Shown here piece by piece: positions 3,437-47,694 of a stretch of DNA of 64,000 nt. A model generated the notes under the pieces. The model saw only the letters and a list, made by a program, of their open reading frames with translations. It made no database searches and had not been told where the DNA came from. Every line of letters starts with the position of its first letter. Position 1 is the stretch's first letter. The translations under genes were made by a program, and so were the position numbers. This DNA is from Fennellomyces sp. T-0311 (taxonomy: Eukaryota > Mucoromycota > Mucoromycetes > Mucorales > Lichtheimiaceae), in contig JALLLT010000011.1 in the NCBI GenBank assembly GCA_025266875.1, forward strand, positions 806,001 to 870,000. Reading direction: 5' to 3'.

Positions 3437-4906
<1,470 letters not shown>

Positions 4907-13428: not shown

Positions 13429-15691
13429 ATGACCGACCCACTCGCATGCAGCAATTCGTCTATTCGAACCACAAACACCGATCTATCCGAGACGAGCCGT
13501 AATGTGATTGTCAACGATCGCTGGCTGATCTTGGGCAAGATAGGCGAAGGCTCCTTTGGTGAAGTGTTTGAAGGTAGAGGTCACTTGATTTCTATAACGG
13601 ATCGGCGGTGTGTAACCGCTTTATGGTTCTAGCTCAAGACATCAACGATGGCAAGCTTTATGCGATCAAGCGCGAGCGCAAGAGCATGCGGCACCCGCAA
13701 CTTAAGCGCGAAAGCGAGCACTATGCGGCACTGGGGAATCGACGTGAGTTTGTGGAAGGAGGGCACCGGCAGGATAGCTTACGTTGATTGTCATAGCTGG
13801 GATTCCCCAATGTCACTGGTATGGCGAGTTTGACGAATTCAATTGCATTGTCCTTGATCTCCTGGGCCCCAGTCTGAAGGACGTACGCCAATGCATGACG
13901 CCGCTGCCCTTTGATATTATTATCGAGCTGATCTACCAAATGGTATGTGAATGACGCAGACCTGGGTGGATCGGGCGTCTCACACCGCTGATGAATTAGG
14001 TCGATATCATCCAGCACGTGCATCAAAGCGGCCTCGTCTTCCGCGACATCAAACCCGACAACTTTTTATTTGGATACGCATGCAAGCTGCCTGAAGTCAA
14101 GATGGTCAAGATGGAACGCGAGATGCCGCATTACCAGTACGAGGTTGCCAACGCACGCTCGGTGTTTGAGACCTGGGGAAAGCGAAACACGCAGATGCAT
14201 ATCATTGACCTTGGCCTCGCCACGCGCTGGCGCGATCCCGATACAGACAAGCCGCTGCCGGAAGCCAAGCCGAAGCGGCGCAACAAGATTGGCACAGCAC
14301 GCTACGCATCGATCCGGGTGCACCGGGGGAGAATGCATGCCCGGGGAGATGATCTGGAAGGGATCGCCTATATTCTGCTGGATATGGTGCTTGGCACGTT
14401 GCCATGGACGGGGATCCAGGCCAAAAACTCGGCCGCAGGATGGGATCGGATGCGCGTCATGAAGCTGGACGCAGAGATGGCCGACTTGCTGGACGGTTAT
14501 CCCGAAGGTGTTGTCAAATTTATCAACTATACCCGAGAACTGCGCTTTTCCGAGGAGCCTGACTATGATTTATTGAAGCAGTATCTCAAAGGCGCCCTGC
14601 CTGGTGGCGCTCACTCGAAACCCACCCGGACACCCTTCGAACGAACCGATAAGTCCGAGCCGCGACGGCGTCACCGTCTTGCCGCCGATATGACACCCTA
14701 CAGTGGCCAGACCACGCAGCAGGATGGCTGGCAGCAACACGTCACTGATCTTCCACCCCCGCAGGATGAATCAAGCGGCTCTGGCTCAAATGCCAAGAAG
14801 AAGTGGAGTACGCAAGAGCAGCGGGTCGGTTGGTACACATACAAGCATGATGAGGAGCCATGGAAGCCTGAAATCGACTGGGACCCCAATGAAGCCAAAC
14901 ATAACGCGGCGACTGCTTCTTGGGGAGAAGACAAGGCGGATGCAGCGTGGGGACCCAAGGAAGAAACTGGCTGGCCTAGCTCGGTGGCGCGAACAGATAG
15001 TGGAACTGGATGGGATTGTCAACCATCCTCTCAAGAAACCAAAGGCGACTCCTGGGGAGTCAAGCCTGATAGCAACACCGCATGGAGACTCGATGCCAAC
15101 GACAACTCATGGAGGGTTGATACCAAGAGCAGCTCCTGGGCAACGGATGCCGGACAAGGGTGGGGCAATGAGCCGGCTAAATCTGCACCCTGGGGCAGCA
15201 CAAAGCCTGATAATTCTGCATGGCCAAAAGAAAACGATAATACCAAAGGCTGGGGCGCAGAACCCAACCATACCAACCGTGGCCAACCGCTCACATCCAC
15301 GAACAACCGCACAACCAACTCCTGGGGAGCCAAACTTGAGGCCAAGCCAGGCACCACGTGGGAATCCATGCAGAATGACGCGAAACCACGATCCAATCCA
15401 CAACCAAAACCACGCAGCGAAGCATCTGGATCAGCCAAGTGGAACGCTTGGGCCGCCAGCACCAGCGCAAAAACTCAATCTCCAACCAGCTCATCTAATA
15501 CCCGCACAGGGCGCCATCCCTCATCTCAACAAACACACCAAGCATCTGAACAGCAACTCTGGGCCACGCAAAACGCCGATGGTGGATGGACGACGCCCGC
15601 AGATAAAGACGGATGGAACACAAAAGTATCAAGGCACGATAACCGGCAATCACAAGGCCGGGGACGACGAAAGCCGCAACAACACTGGTGA
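13429..15691 (+). CDS. Casein-kinase-1-type Ser/Thr kinase with GW/WG-rich C-terminal tail
   Basis: Four exons (13429-13573, 13633-13743, 13797-13942, 14000-15691) join in phase to give 697 residues. Residues about 25-330 form a CK1 kinase: glycine loop KIGEGSFGEVFE, ATP lysine in YAIKRE, catalytic loop FRDIKPDNFLFG, DLG in place of DFG (HIIDLGLATRW), and the CK1 signature GTARYASI followed by DDLEGIAYILLDMVLGTLPW. From about residue 395 to the end the protein is disordered in character and rich in Trp, with about 25 Trp. Roughly a dozen sit in GW, WG or GWG context between S/N/D/K residues (for example GQGWGNEP, TKGWGAEP). It ends in an RGR-type basic segment. Such tails resemble Argonaute-binding 'Ago hooks'. 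Kinase identity is sure; the Argonaute link is inference. All spliced exons are free of stops. Confidence 0.9.
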
Positions 15692-16508: not shown

Positions 16509-18074
16509 ATGTTCGCCCGTGTCGCTCGTCCCTTGTCGTCCTCTGTCTCCGTCGCTGCCAAGCGCACTGTCGGTGTCCGTGCCGGTAGCACATTCGCCAA
16601 GTACAACTGGCAAGATCCCTTGAACCTCGAGAAGCTCTTGACCGATGAGGAGATTATGGTCAGGTAAGTCGTGTTTACTACCTCGTTACCGTCTTGTCAT
16701 GGTTTACTCATCTTTGTAACAGAGATGCTGCCCGTGATTACTGCCAGGAAAAGCTTTTGCCCCGTGTCTTGAACGGTTACCGCAATGAAGGTAAGCCAAA
16801 AGAAAACGCGTTTATGCTTGTCGATCCTAATACATGATATATAGTTTTTGACCGCGAGATCATGTCTGAAATGGGTGAACTTGGTTTCCTTGGTTCCACC
16901 ATCCAGACTCACGGCTGTGCTGGTGTCTCTTCCGTCGCATATGGTTTGACAGCACGCGAAGTTGAGCGGTAAGTTGTCTATACCAGCCCAATTAGCTAAA
17001 TACAATGTGGTATACTAATACACATATTTAGTGTTGACTCTGGTTACCGTTCGGCCATGTCGGTTCAGTCCTCTTTGGTCATGCACCCCATCAACGCCTA
17101 CGGTACCGAAGCACAGAAAGACAAGTACTTGCCCGAACTTGGTAAAGTTTTGAATAGGATGGGATATTTTGGAACTGGAAAACTGATTTTTTGTAATTAG
17201 CCAAGGGTAACATTGTTGGTGCTTTCGGTTTGACCGAGCCCAACCACGGCTCGGACCCCGCTGGTATGGAAACCACTGCTAAGAAGGTCAACGGTCACTA
17301 CGTTTTGAACGGTAGCAAGACCTGGATTACCAACTCTCCCATCGCCGACGTTTTCATTGTCTGGGCTAAGAACTTGGAGGAAGATGGTGCTATCCGTGGT
17401 TTCATTTTGGAGAAGGTAGGGAAAAAAAGGATAAAGTGAGGACAAATGAGAATCAGATCCAACTAAACATTATTTTTTGAAAACAGGGTATGAAGGGTTT
17501 GGAAGCTCCTGCCATCAAGGGCAAGTTCTCTCTCCGTGCCTCCATCACTGGTATGATCATGATGGATAACGTTGAGGTCCCCGTCGACAACATGCTGCCC
17601 GCTGTCAAGGGTCTCAAGGGTCCCTTTGGCTGCTTGAACAACGCTCGTTATGGTATTGCCTGGGGTGCTCTGGGTGCTGCCGAAGCCTGTCTTCAAGTTG
17701 CCCGCGATTACACTTTGGACAGAAAGCAGTTTGGCAAGCCTTTGGCTAGCAAGCAATTGATCCAGCAAAAGATGGCCGATGCACACACCGAAATTGCTCT
17801 TGGTCTCCAAGCCTGTCTCCAGGTCGGTCGCCTCAAGGACTCTGGTGAATTGGCCCCCGAAATGATCTCCATGATCAAGCGCAACTCCTGCGGTAAGGCC
17901 ATCAACATTGCTCGCGACTGCAGAGATATGTTGGGTGGTAACGGTATCAGTGACGAGTACCACGTCATCCGTCACGCCGCTAATCTCGAGGCAGTCAACA
18001 CTTACGAAGGAACTTCGAGTGTGCACGCCCTTATCTTGGGCAAGGCTATCACTGGCATTCCTGCATTCGCCTAA
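16509..18074 (+). CDS. GCDH: Glutaryl-CoA dehydrogenase, mitochondrial
   Basis: This FAD enzyme oxidises and decarboxylates glutaryl-CoA to crotonyl-CoA in lysine/tryptophan breakdown in the mitochondrial matrix. The start [19 protein letters not shown] is a typical Arg/Ser-rich presequence. The mature part opens [20 protein letters not shown]. Seen family motifs are [18 protein letters not shown], whose Arg binds the glutaryl carboxylate in the known enzyme, then [38 protein letters not shown] and [13 protein letters not shown]. The catalytic Glu is in [15 protein letters not shown]. Five short introns interrupt the gene (near 16.66, 16.79, 16.97, 17.14 and 17.42 kb). Length is typical of the family (about 430 aa). 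ETF is the expected electron acceptor. No PTS1. Confidence 0.95.
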
Positions 18075-35530: not shown

Positions 35531-37113
35531 TGTAAATTCACCTCTTTCATTTTACCCTTTATACAGTCATCATTGCATAAAATATTGATATTAAAGCTAA
35601 ACAGCTGAAAGCATTCAGTTTGGTAATAAGATGTTTGAAAAATATACGTATATAGCGTGCCATATTAGTGAAATTGAATATGTCACGTTTACTATAATGT
35701 TGCAGACGTAACTTGAACGTAGCAGGGCATCAATCAATTTATACACCTGTTGCAGAAAAGTGTAGTGCTAGCTTTCCCATACCACATATGAAGTAAAATT
35801 TTCTACTCTTAGATCTAGCAGCACAGGATTCTGCGTTGGTTCGACTGGTAATGTTCGAATTGGAGACTACATTTGTTCAAAAACACCACGGTCGTTTTAA
35901 ATGCTGTCTTGTGCTACCCGACTTGTGCTCCAATATGGCTCGTGACGTTTGCAGCTCCTCAGGCGAATTACAATATATGTCCGCTGGACCGATGATGATG
36001 TCCAAACTTTATCTTTATTTACAATGGGATTTGGCAGTGATTACGTTTTGGCGCATCGAAAATCGCATCGAAAATCGGATCGTTATATCGAATTATCGTT
36101 ATATAAAATATAATTATAGGAAGCGCCACTGTTAGCAAAGTTGGCAAATAAAAAGGTGCTTTTTTTTGTTAATCGATTGGCTCGAAAACCATAGGAAACG
36201 GAAGACATGTGTAATACTGGTGTAGGAACAGATATGTCAACCTTCCAAAATAAACTCATAACTTTTTATCTATATGAGAACCACTAGCATGATGGAATTG
36301 ACAAATGAAACGATCTACAGTCATGATTGCATAGTTTGTATTAAGAATCAAGGATGCCAAAAAAGTATAAAAGTATAATTGAAAGGGTTCATTATAAAAT
36401 GTATATATGCTTTGCTGTGGTTATGCTGTGTTGTCAGCCTTCGAAACGAGAGCAATTAAGGATATCACAACTATTTCAAAATGCTACTGTTTCCATATTT
36501 TAGGTGTGCTGTTATATCTTCAACCGCTGAGTATAATTACTATAGCTGACATTTCGCTCTACCTCTGCATGATCGGTCCTCCACACCGGTGCTTGGGTTA
36601 TAAAATTGGACTAGTCACCTGAGAATGCAGTCATAACTTCATATCCGTTGGCGGACTCAAAAGATGGGTAGCTGCAAGTATTAGTTGAATTTTGCCTTTT
36701 TAGCTTTTTAGGCGTTCTAACGGCGTTTGAAACAGCCTTTAGGGATTGGTCGATACGGCTGGCTGGGTGTCTGTCACGCTTTTTACTGCGAGATATTCTA
36801 CTTAAACGGAAGCTGGTGGGTTGCGCCGTCTATGCATATCATTGGTTGCCGATAGCATTCATGCGCAGAAACAGTTGATCCGTGCATACCATACATGAAG
36901 GGTGTGCCTCGTTCGCATACTGAAACAATAGCGATGGCCAATAGGGTTGACCATTATGATAGATACTACAAATGAAAGTAACAATGCTTGGATGTCAACG
37001 TTAGCCTAACTTAATAAGGAAGTACCAAATAAAATACACCTCCAATTGCGTGCTTGCGTCGTCTCTCTTTTTTCGCGTTTCGCGTTTCATGCTGTACCAC
37101 ATTCTTTCCAACT
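35531..37113. other. AT-rich region upstream of the Fanzor gene
   Basis: No gene recognised. 35695-35810 is similar to 31340-31460. An imperfect ATCGAAAATCG repeat occurs at 36056-36080. Any left end of a Fanzor-bearing element would lie here, but I found no matching terminal repeat. Confidence 0.4.
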
Positions 37114-40100
37114 ATGAATCCTACGCTTGTACAGAAGATCTTTGGTCATTCGGAAGAGGTACAGATCGAAGCACCACCCATCTCAGCCAACCGGCTGGAG
37201 AACACCTTCAGTGGTCTGCATAACTTTGTTCCCGATGCCGAGAACCTGCGCAAACCAACCAAGGCCTTTAAAAGAAGCGGCATGGATATTCTCCAATCCA
37301 CGGCATTGACACGGCTGCTTTCCGGCGACTCTGATCATACCATTTTCTTGCGAACCGCGCCACCAACTAAAGCAAAAGGGTTGATGTTCCTCATAGCCAT
37401 TGCTCATCAAAAGGATCTGCGTGTTTTCTACTTTTCCACCAGAAAGCATGCGCAGCTGATCAATCCGATTGGTAAGACAACTGTTAATGTGCTGCAGCAT
37501 ACCGACTCATACCTTGGCGAGAAGACCAAACGGTTCCAACTTTGCGACTTGCCCGAGTACAAGGTTGGCTTTTGACTAACCATTTAAAGTAATGATATAC
37601 TCAAATCGACTTCTTTTGAAGCCTCCGAAGCTGGTAAAGTGTCAGCCAACGCCCGCACCAGCTCCAACATCGTCTACTGTAGCCACGATTACAGACCATG
37701 ACGAGAATGACGTGGACAACGAAGAGGTGACAATGTTTCGGACAGGTATTACCCGAGACCAGGTCATCAGCGAGTTTGAGGCCGGGGTCAGGCGGTTCCA
37801 TCGTCAAGTGATTGAAGAGGCATTTAAAGGAGCGGAAAGCAAGCAAAAAACTGTCAAGATGCTAGAAAAGCTGCACAACAAGCACGACAAAAGAAAAAAC
37901 GTTCCTCGCATCTATGACGAGATCCAAGCATCCATCCTAAAACGGCATCCCATGGACGTGGCTCCTAACTGGTTCGCTGACCGGATAAAAAGTTATAAAG
38001 ATTACGACCGATTTCAATACTTCAAAAGTGAAGGGTATCGGCTGCATGAGGAATTACAGGGTTTCTTGGACTCATGTACGTGGGACGAAGTCATGGGTTA
38101 CCAGGACAGCGATCAAGAAGCCAATAACAGTGATGACCGAGAAACCGACGACGAAGGTAGCCAAGCGGTCAAAAACAAAGACACTTCAATACGCGAAACA
38201 GTAACTTTCACAGAAACTATGACGTTTTCATTGCGGTCTATTTTACGAGGGGAAATCGCCTACGACGGGTTCTTGAACCGATTGGAGAACGAGAAATTGC
38301 GCGTCGGTCGATGTATGGCACAGCTTTCGAACGGGGTATCAGCTTTGACTGATATGATCGCCAGCGGAAGAATGGCCCGACTGTGCCGTACTGTTGTCGA
38401 CGACACAATTTTCGATATCCAAGCTCTGGTACCTGGTTTTGATTTCGGACCAGAGGCGAAAACGGCTGTCCATGTGTCACCTATACCGCCAAATCTGGAC
38501 AAGTTGGAAGATGCCCGCGTGTATCAGTTTGAACATCTCTCGAACATACTGTCAGGTACGTCATCGCAGTGTACACTTTCCGTTTCCATCAATCAACGTG
38601 TTATGTTTTATGCTTAGGGTGCGTCGGTTCAAGCGTGAACCAAAAGATGGAATCATTTGTTTTTCATGAATCGCGCAAGACGATCGTGGATACTGGTGTT
38701 GTCACCAAGCAGGATGACTTTGCCTTCAACGGTGCCATGAACAATGCTCTTCGGGAGTTCAAGACAGCTGCACACAACCTCTGGCCGCGGAAGCGCCACG
38801 ACAGAGATCTCCGAGTCCTAACAACTGCTCTCATTCGGCTGAGGCTTGCACCAGATCGCGTCCGCCGTTATCTTGCGCGGATTGCAGCTGAGAAGAGAAA
38901 AAAGGAGGAGACAGACGCCAGCAATCCCGTGGATCGGCGTATCAGCATAGCAGATGCTAAGAGTAAGGCAGATTACCACCGGAAAGAGCTTGAGAATTCG
39001 ATTGTTCGCTGAAGAGACGATGCTGTGATCGAAATGTTATTCGAAAAGCTAAACAACTGGGTCGCGAAGGTAGATCGACAGAATTTTTTTTGTGTGCTTA
39101 CTTTTCGCACTAACAGAGTTATTCTAAAAGCTTGACAAGCTGTCCCGTTCATCAAAAGCTCTTAGTAGCAAAGAGGAGGTCGAGAAAGAAGAAAAGCACA
39201 AACAGGATTGCACTCTTCCCAAGAAGCTTGACAAGGACAATCCGATTAGTACGAAGACCAACGACGCCGACGAGGAAGAAGTGGAAGAGTCTGCCGTAGA
39301 TGCCCAAGAAAAAGAAGTTACCACCCGTCAAGTTCGAGCACTGGTAGCCATTATCAAACGAGTCCTGTTCACCACCGCCAAGCAGGTGTCTGCCAGAGCA
39401 ATTCGCGATGCAGCCTACAAGGGGAGCGACCTGACAGATAAGCAGTGTTAGGCTGCTGCCAAAATCGCCAACGCAGTTCGACCATACTACCACCCCGAAC
39501 CAGATCAATACGATAGCGCAGAAGACGACGATGACGACGAAGCGGATGTTCTGTCAGTGCATAAATGCGTCCCTCTGGCTTATATCACAAACGCTGTCGT
39601 TAAATTGTGGTCCCGCAACAGAATATCTGGGCGATCGTCCCAGACGTCGACTGCAAAAACCCCTCCATCCATATTGGAGCAGATGTGCTTTACACATTAT
39701 TCTCCGGTACTTACACGATCCCATCTACCAGCGCCAAGGGGAAAGTCACCAACAAACGAGAGGCGGGCCTGCCAGAGAGGCGCGATGACGTTTTTGGTGC
39801 CTTTTTCCGCTTACCGAAGATAACACAAGCTCTCAAAACCAAGAACCTTGTCTTCAAGCACCGTTTGACCTATGTTAACAAGTATCAGGTCCGGGTGCTT
39901 GGTCGTGGTCGCAAGACCGCTGACCCGAATGATACCAGCCAAGCAAAGAAAGAAGCAAGTAGCGTCCAGTCCGCCGATCAAAATGAAGAATTTAGCTCCT
40001 CTGATTCCAGTGCGGACGAAGTGCTTCCTGTTCGCAAAGGGAAGGGTAGGGCTGTGGTGACGCCTTCCACAGCAAAGAACAAGGCTGGTAAAGGAATGGC

Positions 40101-41404
40101 TGGCAAAGGAAAGGCCAGGAAGGCTCGAAAACGAAAAAAGAAGAAGGCGATCAAGGCAGCCGGGCAGAAAAGGCCGCACCCCTCAGCAGCCGAATCTGGG
40201 TCGATAAGGGCTAACATCGATCTAAATCTCAACCAACAACTTCTGGAAGAGAAGGAGAAACAGGTCAAGGAGCTACAGGCCGAGCTCACATTGGTACGCA
40301 AGAAATGCAATAAGTACGAGATCGAGCGTGCAGACCTGGGTCGTACATTTCGGAACGGGAAAAAGAACAAGGGGAAGAAGGATTGGGATCGTGGTGTTTA
40401 CGCGAAGCTATGGGCAGTGCGAAGAACTGTCCGGGAATTTGAAAAAGACATCTGATTGAAGCAAAGGAAATTGGCGGATTTGTGTGCCGAGCTGTTTCGG
40501 ATGCAAGCGTTAAAATCGAGCAAAACAGTTCGGCCTCAAGAAACAATAGAACAGGTAAAGCGCTTGGACCAAAGGCGCGTTATATGTATGCTTATCACTG
40601 TGTTTATAGAAACGTATCCAAAAGACGATCATCGACAGCTTCAACAGCCAGAAACCGCTGGGCGTCATTGGAATCGATCCAGGGATAGTTGTCGCGGCAA
40701 CCGCTGCCTTTTTTATTGATGATGTATACTTTTTCGCTTTGGGTGGGCGTGTTGTCTGTTGCGGCGGTTGCTGCTCAGGTGATGGTGGTGAGGTGTACCT
40801 TCGCACAACGCTCATCACGGCGTCAAAGGTGGTGGTAACCGCGACCTTCGAAACAAAGCATACCAAGCGACGCGAACGCGACAAGGAAAAGGACGACGGC
40901 AACAGGAGGAATAAAGAGTCAAGGACGAGGGAGATCCGTCACTTTATCCTGCATCGAAAGCTTGCAACATCTTGGCGCGTTCAGCAATCGATAGCAACAC
41001 TGACTTTCTATGGCGCATATCGTGCAGTCAACAGTCGCATCAAGAAGCATGCTAGAGGCGCGAACGCAAAACTGAGACAGGCACTTGAGCCATGCGAGTA
41101 TGATATCGTTATCGTCACCAATGAATATCGCTCGTCTAAAACATGCCCTGAATGCCATGCACCGACAAAACTGCAGAAGTACCGAGTAGATGGAAAACTC
41201 AAGGCAACTAACGGCGCCATCAGGTGCACGAATCCGGACTGCCCTCTCCACCATGCGAATACTTTCAACCGTGATGCAGCAGCATCATTCAACATCGCTG
41301 TCAGTGGCCTTTCGAAAACTGTATCTCACAACAATTTACCCATCCCACCCTTCTCCCGCTCCCACGGCCAAACCTTCCAACTCGCTGCCTCGATGAGCGA
41401 TTGA
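37114..41404 (+). pseudogene. Fanzor (eukaryotic TnpB-like RuvC nuclease), three in-frame stops
   Basis: Six exons fit in phase: 37114-37471, 37590-38555, 38618-39069, 39131-39556, 39622-40554, 40610-41404. The product would be about 1,309 codons. The C-terminus is the TnpB/Fanzor nuclease. RuvC-I Asp is in GVIGIDPG (Asp codon 40676, residue about 1068). A Glu sits in TNEYRSSKTCPECH (about 1217). A four-Cys zinc ribbon (about 1224, 1227, 1251, 1256) lies between it and the RuvC-III Asp in FNRDAAASFNI (about 1267). Upstream are long N-terminal helical regions, acidic patches and a KRKKKK-type nuclear signal near 40130. TGA at 39010, TAG at 39449 and TGA at 40453 interrupt an otherwise clean frame, so the copy is probably inactive. 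Length suggests Fanzor1. The 37114-37575 piece could be a separate small gene. No transposase is adjacent. Confidence 0.88.
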
Positions 41405-41450
41405 CGGAACACCAGCGCTAGGTGCTTTTTGTCTCCCCCGTGACGGTGGA

Positions 41451-41465
41451 TTTAAAGTAGTATAG
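41451..41465 (+). repeat. 15-bp direct repeat, left copy (TTTAAAGTAGTATAG)
   Basis: The same 15-mer recurs at 41947-41961, bounding 481 bp. The left edge of the enclosed DNA begins with a small hairpin (CTCAAAA...TTTTGAG at 41466-41490). The layout looks like a target-site duplication around a short insertion, but no known element is recognisable inside. Confidence 0.5.
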
Positions 41466-41946
41466 CTCAAAAGTTATAATTTATTTTGAGAGGTAATAGA
41501 CCCGCTCCTAAAGGTATTAGGTCTCTCCCTTGCGGTTCGAAGGTGTCGTTAAATTTGTACAAAAGAATGAGAAAATCCATGCTTGAAAAAAAAACCATAT
41601 TGGTGAACGAAAAAAAAGCAGGTCAGTGTAGCCCAAGATGGTAGATAGCGGGGTGGCACTGCCATATTGCAAGTAGACCCTTACAAAACCAAACATGTCA
41701 CGTGTGGTTTCCTTGGGGGGAATCTGTCGAATTTTGGATGGACCGTCCGGTGCTTGATTTGCTGCTTTGTTCGTTATCCGCATTCGGGTGGATCAGGTTG
41801 TCGATCCTGTGTAGAAATTGGAGTAGTGCTGGCCAAGTGTGCTTCCATTTACCACGGGCGAGACCGACATCTGAACGCGGAAGGCAATTCAGTATATAGT
41901 CGATCAGGTTGGATATCAGGATCGAGCTCAGTAATGGCGCCGAAAG

Positions 41947-41961
41947 TTTAAAGTAGTATAG
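41947..41961 (+). repeat. 15-bp direct repeat, right copy (TTTAAAGTAGTATAG)
   Basis: Second copy of the 15-mer found at 41451-41465. A perfect 15-bp match at this distance is unlikely by chance even in AT-rich DNA. Confidence 0.5.
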
Positions 41962-42945
41962 AACGTCTGACTTTCGACACGTTTACACTCTCGCAAAAAG
42001 TAATATCATGCTTAGAAGCCAGTAGTAGCAAAAGAAAGGCAGTATAAAAACTATCGGATCAACCTCTGTATGTAAATTAGCGACATTAATTTCTAAGTAT
42101 ATGCGCGGCATTTATTCAGAATAGCAATACTCCATCCTCATCAAACAAGGGCGCTTTAGCTTGTTTGGAAAGATACACATCATCAATAACATATTGGTGA
42201 TCGATGATGACGTATAGTAGAAATAATATACTTTGAGATTTTTGCTAGCTACATTTTCTCTAAAGGGTATAGGCTCTATCAAGTTTGCTTTTGTTTTGCA
42301 GATCGCCGAGTACCGGTACAGAAATAAAAAGGCAGCTCCCGGTCAATTTTCTTTGCAGTCGCGTTCTTCCGTCATCCTATGTGAGATGATAAAAACCTTA
42401 AGCTGAGCCAGTGAGCATGGTTACTGCGAGCATGCGTGCGGTAAATAGAAATTTCTAAAGGGTTCCCAGAACCAAACAAATAAGCGAATGTTGGTGCGAG
42501 TCATTGGGGCCGTGAATTGTGTACATACAGGTGTCTGTGTACGATGCACTTGTAAGGCGTCGATTGCCACCGAGCTACTTGCTTTAAGTTTATCCGATAT
42601 CTTTATCGGTCTTCGGGATCGGTGACATTGCGTAACAACGGTGGTTTCTCACGTTTAATCACCTAAAAGTGCTCAAGAAAAGCAAGAGCGACCTCAAAAA
42701 TTATGCCATGTCACAATGGTGGGCGTTAATTAGTGCGTGTATATGCTGATCTAAATGACCTGTGCTTTATTCAAAATATTTGTATTGTTCTGTAACATAT
42801 GCTTGTCTAGCTCCATACTGGCTCCTATCTGTTTACGGAAACAATGCAACTGTGTTACACCAACAAAAGAGGCACTTATATAACTGTGTGTGCCCTCTTT
42901 TTTTAACGTTTTCATTCGCAATTTTCTCTTGCTGCCTCCTTTGTG

Positions 42946-45808
42946 ATGCCGCAGGATTACGCTGCAGTAAATCAACAGGATGGAGACTTGGAGCAAAGAC
43001 AAGGCCCTTCCTCCTCCTCGTCCAAACCTACTTCCTCCTATTTAGAACCCGCACTCAAATGGATAGCTGAGGCTGTTGGCTCATCCAAAGGTGAAAATGC
43101 GCCGCTGATCAACCGCGGAAAAGGAACTTTGGACCTTCCTCGTAAAACGATCCGAAAGATCATCGTGACAGTATGCTCTATCGTTGGCGTGATATTTATC
43201 ATTGGTGCCGTTATAACATGGGCTGTGATGTGCAACGGTGAAGAACCTAAAGGTAACGAAGGAAAAAAAATGACGAGTCTCCGGAAACTCACAGTGGCAA
43301 CGCATACGTAATAGCTCCACCCAAGAAAAAGCTGACGGACCCTGAAAAGATAGTCGTGGGCGTTCCTTCAAGCGACTCAGTACGCGAATACCTGCGAACG
43401 TACACCTCTGAGCCTCATTTAGCCGGAACGGATGCCGATAAACGCCAAGCCGAATGGACCCGTGACAAATTTCTTGAGTTTGGCATCAGCGATACCAAGA
43501 TTGAGACATATTACCCGCTACTTAACTATCCTCTTGAACAACGACTGGCCATTGTATCTGGTCCCGAAGAACTGCGCTATGAAGCTTCTTTAAAGGAGGA
43601 TATCGTGGATGAAGATAAAACCAGCTCCAACCCGAATGCAACTGCAATTTTTCATGGTAACGTGGCGAATGAGCGTGTTTCGAAAGAAAATGTGCTCATT
43701 TTTTTGTTTATTCTTGCTGTAGGTTATTCCAAAAATGGTACAGCGCTAGGTCCTGTAGTCTATGCTAATTACGGCCGCTTCGAAGATTTCCAATTACTTG
43801 TTGACCGGGGTATCAACCTGCAGGGAACCATTGCATTGATGCGTTATGGGGGTGCTTTCCGTGGTTTAAAGTTACGTGCAGCCGAGCAATTTGGTTGTAT
43901 CGGTGGATTAGTGTATTCGGATCCGTTGGATGATGGACCGGTTGCCAAGCAAAATTATGACAGTCCTGCCAAGGCTTACCCCGAAGGACCATGGTAAGAA
44001 CATTGGTATGGATAGCATGTGATTCCGTAGTTGCTAAATACTACTTATTAGGCGCCCTCCTTCCTCTGTGCAGCGAGGATCTGTTCAATATGCATCTATT
44101 GTAACGGGTGATCCAACTACTCCAGGTTGGGCTGCAACTGAAAACGCGGAGCGCATTGAACGTGATGAATCCCCTGGAATGACACAGATTCCATCTTTGC
44201 CCCTTTCCTACAAGGATGCTCTTCCGCTTTTGCGCGCAACCCAGAGTCGTGGCGTGTGTGATGGAGAGGATTGGGCTGGTGGTTTGGAAGGCATCGAGTA
44301 TTGCAGCGGCCCTACCGAAGGTGATGTGTACTTGGCAAACATTGTTGAGGACAAAATCACACCTATTTGGAATGTCATTGGTCGTATCGAAGGCAATGAA
44401 GAACCGGACCGTGCAATCATCCTTGGTGAGTGTATTCTTCGTTCTTTCAATATATATTCTAATTTATGTGTCTCGAAACTTAGGAAATCATAGAGATGCC
44501 TGGGTATTCGGTGCTGTCGATCCGTCATCCGGTTCTGCTGCAATGGTAAATAGGCTTCATATTCCTTTTCAACACTCTCCCACTCACTTTCTGATAGCTT
44601 GAGCTAGTGCGTACCTTGGGTATATTGGTCAAAAAAGGTTGGAAACCACGTCGAACTATCATCATTGCCTCTTGGGACGCCGAGGAATATGGTAAAGCAG
44701 AAATGTCAAAGTCAACCGTTTCCACTGATAATTTCTGCTTTGTGATATGTAGGCATGGTTGGTTCTACTGAATGGGTTGAAGACCACCGTGATTGGCTAA
44801 ACGAGGAAGCCATCGCATATGTAAATGTTGATATGGGAGTCGGTGGATCCCAATTTATGGCGAGAGGGTGTCCGTCTCTGCGACAAGTGGTGTATGAAGT
44901 AACACGCGAAGTTCTCGACCCTGGATCCAACAATGATCAAACAATTTATGAAGCTTGGAGACAACAGACCAATGAGGATACTCCCGAGTTTGGGCTTCTT
45001 GGATCCGGATCTGACTTTATCGGATTCATCAGTCATATTGGCATCAGCAGTCTTGATTTTGCATTCAGGGGTGACTACGGTGTCTACCATAGCAACTATG
45101 ACAGGTGAAACAAAAAAAGGACATACAATGGCTAGCATCATAGTAACATACACGCATAGTTTCCACTGGATGGAAAAATTCGGCGACCCAACTTTCAAAT
45201 ACCACGAGACTCTTGTCAAGATCTGGGGGTTATTGGCACTTCGTCTTGCAGATGATCGTATCTTGCCATTGTATCCTGGAGACTATTCGACAGAGCTCGG
45301 AAAGTACGTCAAGAAGCTACCTATATACGAGTCATTCGCAGGCCCTTTAGAGACCTATGAAACTTTTGGAGGACCTTACAAGCCTTTCTTCAAGTCACTC
45401 AAAAAGTTAGCCAAGGCAACTCGTCGATTCGAGCGGCGCCGAGGTCGCCTTGAAGGACGACTAGAAGATGAATTTGGCAACGCTACCGATACCGAGCTTC
45501 CTAGTGTTATCTTCAAGCGCATGAAAGAAGCTAATGAACGGTTGATGCACTTTGAACGTGGATTCATTGACCCCGATGGCTTAAAAGACCGTCCATGGTT
45601 CAAGCACGTCATTTACGCTCCGGAAATAGACACTGGCTATTCTTCACAGGTATTCCCAGCCCTTGCGGAGGCATTCAAATCGGGTGACACCGAACAAATC
45701 GGTTTGGCAATCCAGCAGACAACGAGTCGTATCGCTGCAGCCACTGAATTACTGAAGGCTGATTATGATGGTGACGACGACGAAGACGATGATGATGATG
45801 ATGATTAG
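42946..45808 (+). CDS. Glutamate carboxypeptidase II-like M28 peptidase (type II membrane protein)
   Basis: This zinc peptidase belongs to the GCPII / transferrin-receptor-like group. The start [12 protein letters not shown] leads a cytosolic tail of about 70 residues. One membrane helix follows ([21 protein letters not shown]), then the lumenal/extracellular part: [20 protein letters not shown], a PA-type insert ([28 protein letters not shown]), and the peptidase domain. All zinc and catalytic residues are visible: [10 protein letters not shown] (His, Asp), SWDAEEYG (Glu, Glu), AYVNVDMG (Asp) and YHSNYD (His). A helical dimerisation domain follows, and the protein ends in a run of Asp ([11 protein letters not shown]). 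Short introns separate the exons with matching phases, for example just before [15 protein letters not shown]. Its stop is 13 bp from the convergent mitochondrial IF-3 gene. Confidence 0.93.
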
Positions 45809-46759: not shown

Positions 46760-47694
46760 TTACATGAAATCATCAAAATCATCGTACACGTCTCGATAGG
46801 CTGGGCTTTCATCCAACGCAGAGCTCTTGCCAGCAGCAGCAAGCTGGGGCTTTCCTTTCTTCTTGGCCTTGGTGGCCTCCTTTGCCTGTCGCTGCTTGTC
46901 GTTGGCCATGGCGGTCAAGGAAGAAGCGGCCTTACGGATATCCATATCCTTGCATGGAACGGCGATTTCGCGAACAAGTGCGTCAAGGAATACGCCGTAG
47001 TGTGGGCTTTTCTGTAGGAAGCAACTGTCAATTTCAGTAGCAAAGTGGATCAAGAGAAGTTACGTACTGAGTTGGCAAGGATGACTTCGGACAAACGCTT
47101 GGCATAGTCAGTGTACTCCACTCTGGTCTTGGGCTTGAAATCCTCAATGGACTTCTTATCATCCTCTGCAGAACAGGTCAGGAGGCAATTGCAGATGGCA
47201 CAGGTCGGGACTTACTGGACACCGAGACACCAGAGAACAGATCAGTAGCGTTGTTCATATCAGCCTCCAATTCGAGTTGACGCATTCTCTGCTTTCGCTC
47301 GAAAGCATCCTCATCCGTCTCCTCCTCTTGGGCGCGCTGATAAAAAGAAATCATCATGTTACTGATACGTTCATACGGCAGCTTAAAAAACCAACTTACG
47401 ATAGCAGCCTTCTTGGCCTCCATGATCTTTTTCTTCTCTTCTTCTGCTGCCTTCTTCTCAGCAATCTTTTGAGCGAGAGGGACCTTCTTTCTGACGGGAG
47501 GGAGCTTCTTCTCCTCCTTTTCTTCCTCTTCAGATTCCTCCTCCCAATCGTCCTTCACGTCGTCCTCGACGTCTTCGTCATCCCACTTTGACTTTTTAGG
47601 GACAGCAACCTCGAACTCTTTTTCGTCCTCTATCGATCCATTGTGAATTGTCAATGCATAAAAGCACGCATTCGGCATTACCCCAATCGCTCAT
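46760..47694 (-). CDS. HCR1: Eukaryotic translation initiation factor 3 subunit J (eIF3j/Hcr1)
   Basis: eIF3j binds the 40S decoding site and eIF3, and aids initiation and ribosome recycling. The first exon encodes only MSDW and is joined across an intron (donor GTAATG) to EDEKEFEVAVPKKSKWDDED. An acidic region, a basic helical segment (VPLAQKIAEKKAAEEEKKK), and LELEADMNNATDLFSGVSV follow. A conserved part with KTRVEYTDYAKRLSEVI and the C-terminal HYGVFLDALVREIAVPCKDM then lead to an end at DDFDDFM. Introns lie near 47.05, 47.21, 47.37 and 47.65 kb. The ATG at 47692-47694 is chosen because MSDWE is the usual family start. Confidence 0.92.

Follow-up and report, generated by a model that had tools for sequence, protein, structure and literature searches.

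A decayed copy of a repeated element with a giant Fanzor gene and Helitron2-like ends in Fennellomyces sp. T-0311

The window studied here is a stretch of 64,000 nucleotides from the mucoralean fungus Fennellomyces sp. T-0311 (assembly GCA_025266875.1, contig JALLLT010000011.1, positions 806,001 to 870,000; C13:806001-870000 in our numbering), and it holds a very long gene of the Fanzor family. Our reading, to which we assign a probability of about 0.8, is that this gene lies in a decayed copy of a multi-copy, non-autonomous Helitron2-type element that carries a giant five-exon Fanzor and would be copied in trans by a Helentron, the Fanzor itself acting in the manner of TnpB. This reading rests on fingerprints in the protein, on purifying selection among uninterrupted copies, on ends that the element has in common with a Helentron, and on empty sites. 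The genome searched comprised 45.6 Mb in 182 contigs; loci fetched from it bear L-numbers, and 18 of them, all beyond the window, were compared with the window's element copy.

The gene had been assigned to the TnpB/Fanzor nucleases by a first-pass annotation, on the basis of four C-terminal motifs, and was said to possess a rearranged catalytic Glu, a basic stretch and a very long N-terminus. All of these statements held. The window's coding region begins with an ATG at 37114, and a single open frame (40610-41401) contains GIDPG of RuvC-I (Asp codon 40676-40678), NEYRSSKTCPEC with the Glu and the first Cys pair (Glu codon 41123-41125), CTNPDC with the second Cys pair (41225-41242) and NRDA (Asp codon 41273-41275). 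Among 19 copies, the window included, DPG was present in 13, the Glu plus CxxC in 18, the second Cys pair in 18 and NRDA in 16. The constellation recurs across the family and is therefore more than chance. Two published fingerprints were recognized in the uninterrupted copy L011. The first consists of DPG in RuvC-I and an alternative catalytic Glu six residues upstream of the zinc finger (PMC10711439; this and the other PMC articles are cited for the portions of their text that were available) and corresponds to D1110-P-G and to E1259, six residues ahead of C1266. The second, D-X(125,275)-[TS][TS]-X-X-C4-X(5,50)-RD (PMC3627910), appears as D-X151-[SS]xx-C4-RD, with 151 residues from D1110 to SS 1262-1263, C4 at 1266/1269/1293/1298 and RD at 1308-1309.

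A further line of evidence came from profile searches. With a profile of four family sequences, SpuFz1 of Spizellomyces punctatus (PDB 8gkh; PMC10432273) was retrieved from the PDB with an expectation value (E) of 3.6e-5 and PpFz1 of the mucoralean Parasitella parasitica (PDB 9cf0; PMC11423790) with 6.5e-4, and no other entry at E<=0.01. In these alignments, which for PpFz1 covered the RuvC end and the zinc ribbon, the catalytic Glu, the zinc-ribbon Cys and the last Asp lined up. Four further chains, two of them Cas12f, appeared at E<=1, presumably by chance. A profile of 13 sequences matched the two Fanzor1 structures at 2.2e-4 and 3.6e-4, and a full-length profile matched SpuFz1 at 8.2e-5. 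Kinship in sequence to known Fanzor1 proteins was thus evident from the matches to SpuFz1 and PpFz1.

The majority of Fanzor1 proteins have 600-700 residues (PMC11423790). The protein described here is about twice as long, its extra N-terminal part amounting to roughly 700 residues. More than 1,000 residues precede RuvC-I, with a Lys/Arg-rich stretch ahead of that motif (19 Lys/Arg in 60 residues of L011). Pfam searches with three N-terminal and middle pieces of the window's protein and with four Circinella proteins gave no credible domain outside the C-terminus, the best N-terminal scores lying far under the cut-offs. At least five protein relatives, all unnamed, were found in Circinella umbellata (P0001 and P0003), C. 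minor (P0002 and P0004) and Zychaea mexicana (P0005); two of the searches scored about 8,000 candidates, so that this number is a lower bound. Full-length homologues with the same N-terminus, envisaged by the first-pass annotation, do exist: the nearest, P0001 (1,415 amino acids), has 39% identity over 97%. P0003 has 1,434 amino acids, and it and P0004 were 25-27% identical over the alignment. The relatives are homologous across the N-terminus too, so the giant form is a family. Five pattern matches in viral contigs were not confirmed as relatives.

A search of the genome with the window's last exon yielded 114 matches at E<=0.001, some loci being matched several times; exon 2 (37622..38555) served as another query. 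Similarity between the window and the 18 fetched copies extended from about 36704 to 41465, mostly at 94-97% nucleotide identity, with lower values for L023 (91-92%) and L025 (86-90%). Five of the 18 (L010, L022, L023, L025 and L026) were truncated or late-starting on the left side. The flanks of different copies were dissimilar, apart from those that L015 and L021 have in common and a few short or weak repeats. Because the stretch of about 4.8 kb is repeated and its ends are common to copies in different flanks, it is a repeated element, and the gene is itself a repeat, carried as cargo in a multi-copy transposable element. The Fanzor gene is the only gene of these elements, and hence they are non-autonomous.

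The intact frame of six exons and 1,309 codons that had been proposed for the window did not stand. The uninterrupted sister copies have five exons with 1,352 modeled codons, and their last-exon frame passes the window's stop by a few codons, to about 1,357 residues; the window copy has three stops, a frameshift, an inversion and an insert, located as follows.

37114..37563, plus strand: first exon (150 codons) of the giant Fanzor gene; uninterrupted copies keep it open, with conserved splice sites
37622..38555, plus strand: exon 2, modeled from uninterrupted sister copies
38618..39069, plus strand: exon 3; interrupted in the window copy by an in-frame stop at 39010
39131..40554, plus strand: exon 4; the window copy has one in-frame stop at 39449, another at 40453, and a frameshift between 39452 and 39604
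40610..41404, plus strand: exon 5 with RuvC motifs and zinc ribbon (DPG, alternative Glu, C4, NRD), from motifs and profile searches
40702..40843, no strand assigned: inversion of 142 bp, seen in the window copy alone; all 18 fetched copies have the segment in the opposite direction
41466..41946, no strand assigned: inserted dispersed repeat, retroposon-like; 15-bp flanking duplication at 41451-41465 and 41947-41961

The inversion lies just past the DPG motif, with CGC/GCG at its breakpoints, and leaves the window's frame open by chance; a private inversion of this kind would mislead gene prediction. The inserted repeat of about 480 bp splits the right end of the copy. Used as a query, it gave at least 41 genome matches including the window's own (40 of 173 candidates were scored), many of which stop short at one end. 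The window copy is a pseudogene and a dead transposon copy. That the window should instead contain a single functional host gene with six exons is extremely improbable: the long open stretches and plausible introns at the locus would suit such a gene, but the in-frame stops and the frameshift relative to uninterrupted copies, an inversion seen in none of the 18 other copies, the insert in the element end and the many copies in the genome all speak against it.

Modeling of the five exons covered 11 of the 18 sister copies, the other seven having large deletions or truncation. No stop over 1,352 codons was found in three modeled copies (L009, L011 and L016) and one stop in two (L013 and L017); the remaining six had at least 12, because of stops or shifted frames. 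Ratios of nonsynonymous to synonymous substitution rates (dN/dS) were 0.26-0.38 in pairwise comparisons (10 pairs among the five best copies) and 0.26-0.49 when pooled by segment. Constraint was evident in every segment, including the N-terminus of about 1,100 residues. As judged from these ratios, the uninterrupted copies are under purifying selection, and the long N-terminus therefore belonged to a working protein while the family spread.

Among the fetched copies, an internal deletion (window 37366-37660) was common to L015, L021, L024 and L026, and another (window 38772-39134) to L020 and L024, both with repeats of about 9 bp at their ends. The same deletion is present in several copies; therefore, the deleted forms themselves were probably multiplied.

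The boundaries of the window's element copy were assigned as listed.

36709..41974, plus strand: whole interrupted element copy; similarity begins at 36704, and if the T-run is the target, the element starts at its last T, 36709
36704..36783, plus strand: left end, CTTTTT-AGGCGTTC..., about 80 bp; common to Fanzor elements of a second family (F2) and, more weakly, to a Helentron
41953..41974, plus strand: displaced right end with inverted repeat GAACGTCT; last bases of the element copy

The first 80 bp of the element had 94-96% identity to nine other loci and 76-79% to five more left ends. Four of the nine, fetched with their left end (L035-L038), represent F2, whose Fanzor shares about 45% identity at its C-terminus with that of the window's family; the long-form F2 element L035 and the short deletion derivatives L036 and L037 have the same ends. 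The five weaker matches included the left end of the C120 element (77% over 88 bp, E 9.8e-10). This element contains a Rep frame (PF14214, 1.2e-23), followed by a second frame, 46 bases away and out of register, with a Pif1 helicase (4.9e-29) and an exonuclease-endonuclease-phosphatase domain (3.5e-10), and then by GAACGCCT and a hairpin. By its predicted domains it is a Helentron (Rep - Pif1 helicase - endonuclease). No RepHel is encoded in the Fanzor elements; Rep, Pif1 and the endonuclease reside on the C120 element. The Fanzor elements end on the right with ..GAACGTCTGATTTT up to the flank, and AGTATAGAACGYCT was present at the right ends of both the Fanzor elements and the C120 Helentron. 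A supposed autonomous partner at C150:182850 was dismissed as a truncated F2 copy adjoining other sequence.

Helitron2 elements insert by the rule TTTT^T/C (PMC5148889), and the same insertion has been described for Helitrons whose relatives, the CRe elements of Chlamydomonas, bear Fanzors (PMC3627910). The target sites agreed with this rule. Five relatives of the flanks of the C120 Helentron represented its empty site, four reading CC-TTTT-T-AGATAC and one CC-TTTT-C-AGATAC; the Helentron had inserted after TTTT without duplication. The joined flanks of two Fanzor copies had uninterrupted counterparts elsewhere: 13 places for L019, of which 6 were fetched, and 1 for L012, which was fetched as well. 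In the fetched loci just 5-6 T-rich bases lay between the flanks, with no duplication beyond the T-run, so that the insertion point falls between TTTT and T/C, give or take about one base. When left flanks preceding CTTTTT were counted (leaving aside L021, whose flank is that of L015, the truncated copies and the window), 14 of 16 had C at position -1 and 13 of 16 had it at -2. L015 and L021 have at least 2.5 kb of upstream sequence in common at >=98%, including an F2 right end, and diverge exactly at the element's right end, a pattern that suggests one-ended copying.

These target sites also bear on another explanation, namely that the element is a cut-and-paste (MuDR-like) or a Crypton element and owes its likeness to Helentrons to a shared target or to recombination. 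Other Mucorales Fanzor1 genes lie in MuDR-like elements with 9-bp duplications or near Crypton (PMC3627910), the ends here have short inverted repeats and T-runs that could count as direct repeats, and the genome encodes a Crypton-type recombinase. We consider this explanation unlikely, however, since no 9-bp duplication was seen at the empty sites, so that MuDR-type insertion was rejected, and since the left end is common to an element with Rep, Pif1 and endonuclease. The Crypton recombinase was likewise rejected as a mobilizer: its two loci (PF12012; 99.9% identical over 2,029 bp) have ends unlike those of the Fanzor elements. These two loci (L046 and L047) are copies of a 2.03-kb Crypton-type element with a recombinase frame of 466 amino acids and the ends ATAAATGATAGTTATCACAC and GTGTGATAA; from the near identity of its copies, this element looks recently active.

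We return to the Helitron2-type element with a giant Fanzor. A Helentron of the same genome would most likely copy such an element in trans through rolling-circle replication, and insertion would be into T-runs (TTTT^T/C) without target duplication. From the likeness to TnpB we infer a guide RNA and RNA-guided cleavage: an RNA transcribed across the right end into flanking DNA would most likely be the guide and would bring the RuvC nuclease to the empty site that it matches; CC-TTTT at the left end is a candidate adjacent motif. The cut empty site might then be refilled from a filled one, by which the copy would be retained. A more speculative proposal, which we regard as doubtful, is that the extra 700 or so N-terminal residues are a new functional module of Helentron-borne Mucorales Fanzors and link RNA-guided cutting with rolling-circle transposition; the module might, for instance, bind RepHel, the CC-TTTT target or the shared left end. 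If true, eukaryotes would have here a counterpart of the TnpA-TnpB partnership in which the two activities are linked.

A number of observations weigh against the reading as a whole. Concerning the protein, the profile check envisaged by the first-pass annotation succeeded with the family profile, but the window exon alone, which carries the inversion, gave no significant match: SpuFz1 was reached at E=0.37, second to an unrelated chain at 0.19, and NCBIfam TnpB at E=2, second to an unrelated model with 0.057. With the L011 last exon as query, Pfam TNB (PF07282) was matched at E 4.3e-5, the 24.0 bits being below the gathering score of 26.3. Predicted structures were poor, with a mean predicted local distance difference test (pLDDT) score of 40.4 for C. 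minor P0004 and 42.8 for L011 exon 5. The TDG motif, reported as characteristic of the Fanzor1 WED domain and not as a defining fingerprint (PMC10711439), was not found in L011, the copy checked for it. With both fingerprints and the profile matches in place but TDG not found, the assignment as a Fanzor is firm at the level of sequence, and the protein is probably of the Fanzor1 kind. Concerning the ends, movement of the Fanzor elements in trans by the Helentron is inferred from the shared ends. The Fanzor empty sites are paralogues of 77-83% identity, so about one base is uncertain. The window's left flank has AG instead of CC before CTTTTT, possibly through a short local duplication. The 5' hairpin AGGCGTTC/GAACGCCT is perfect in the Helentron and some related left ends and degenerate in the window's family. 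At the 3' side, Helitron2 elements are expected to have an inverted repeat 20-40 bp from the end and a hairpin; the Helentron has its repeat 31 bp from the end, followed by the hairpin TGTTTCGAGAAACA, whereas the Fanzor elements have theirs at 6-8 bp, with no hairpin beyond it. The ends are thus described as Helitron2-like, and the element is not filed as a full member. No convincing duplication surrounded the truncated copies L022, L025 and L026, the longest words in common having 7, no and 6 bases, respectively. For structured RNA at either end, none of six folds was better than shuffles; Rfam gave no match in the window at gathering scores.

The negative search for a guide-RNA fold at the ends, the constrained large N-terminus, which matched no known domain, and the Lys that occupies the position of the catalytic Glu in C. 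umbellata P0001 would all suit a Fanzor-derived factor with another role, e.g. in regulating or targeting transposition, that is no longer an RNA-guided nuclease. This alternative appears rather improbable, because the catalytic Glu, zinc ligands and last Asp are kept in 16-18 of 19 copies, decayed ones included, and DPG in 13 of 19.

The surroundings of the element in the window hold ordinary genes, as five long frames nearby indicate; their identities are our assumption, made by eye.

3528-4337, minus strand: presumably aminotransferase-like
14000-15688, plus strand: presumably protein kinase-like
17481-18071, plus strand: presumably acyl-CoA dehydrogenase-like
43257-43994, plus strand: presumably peptidase-like
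47181-47690, minus strand: presumably translation factor-like

That Fanzor1 genes occur in Helitron2-type elements is already known, from one alga (PMC3627910). As in the fungus studied here, CRe-1, CRe-2 and CRe-3 of Chlamydomonas reinhardtii have a multi-exon Fanzor1 as cargo of non-autonomous Helitron2-type elements, their 5' ends match autonomous Helitrons and they insert after TTTT; in some CRe copies additional DNA precedes the normal 5' end, which recalls L015/L021 (PMC3627910). Many CRe copies have duplications of 7-19 bp (PMC3627910), whereas none was found at the three truncated copies checked here. SpuFz1 differs more, having 633 amino acids in a 2.1-kb element with 33-bp inverted repeats and TA duplications (PMC3627910). 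PpFz1 is much shorter than the giant Fanzor, which has an insert between RuvC-I and RuvC-II; PpFz1 has an FRI domain, and no relationship between the two is implied. The Circinella and Zychaea proteins share the homologous N-terminus, P0001 lacking the alternative Glu. Fanzor1 families have also been listed in Mucor, Rhizopus and Phycomyces, and MCi-2 Fanzors lie in 6-kb regions (PMC3627910). In the searchable literature (subscription papers and supplements lie outside it, and sizes of other Mucorales Fanzor1 proteins were not compared), no precedent was found for the size, the fungal host and the endonuclease-bearing partner.

The window thus presents the ordinary fate, a dead copy, of an unusual gene with a likely Helentron helper. 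From the set of loci come proposals for an adjacent motif and for the position of the guide. Fanzors are programmable nucleases of eukaryotes, and a constrained family of double size, together with uninterrupted copies, ends shared with a Helentron and empty sites, is a natural system in which to test what a Fanzor does for its transposon.

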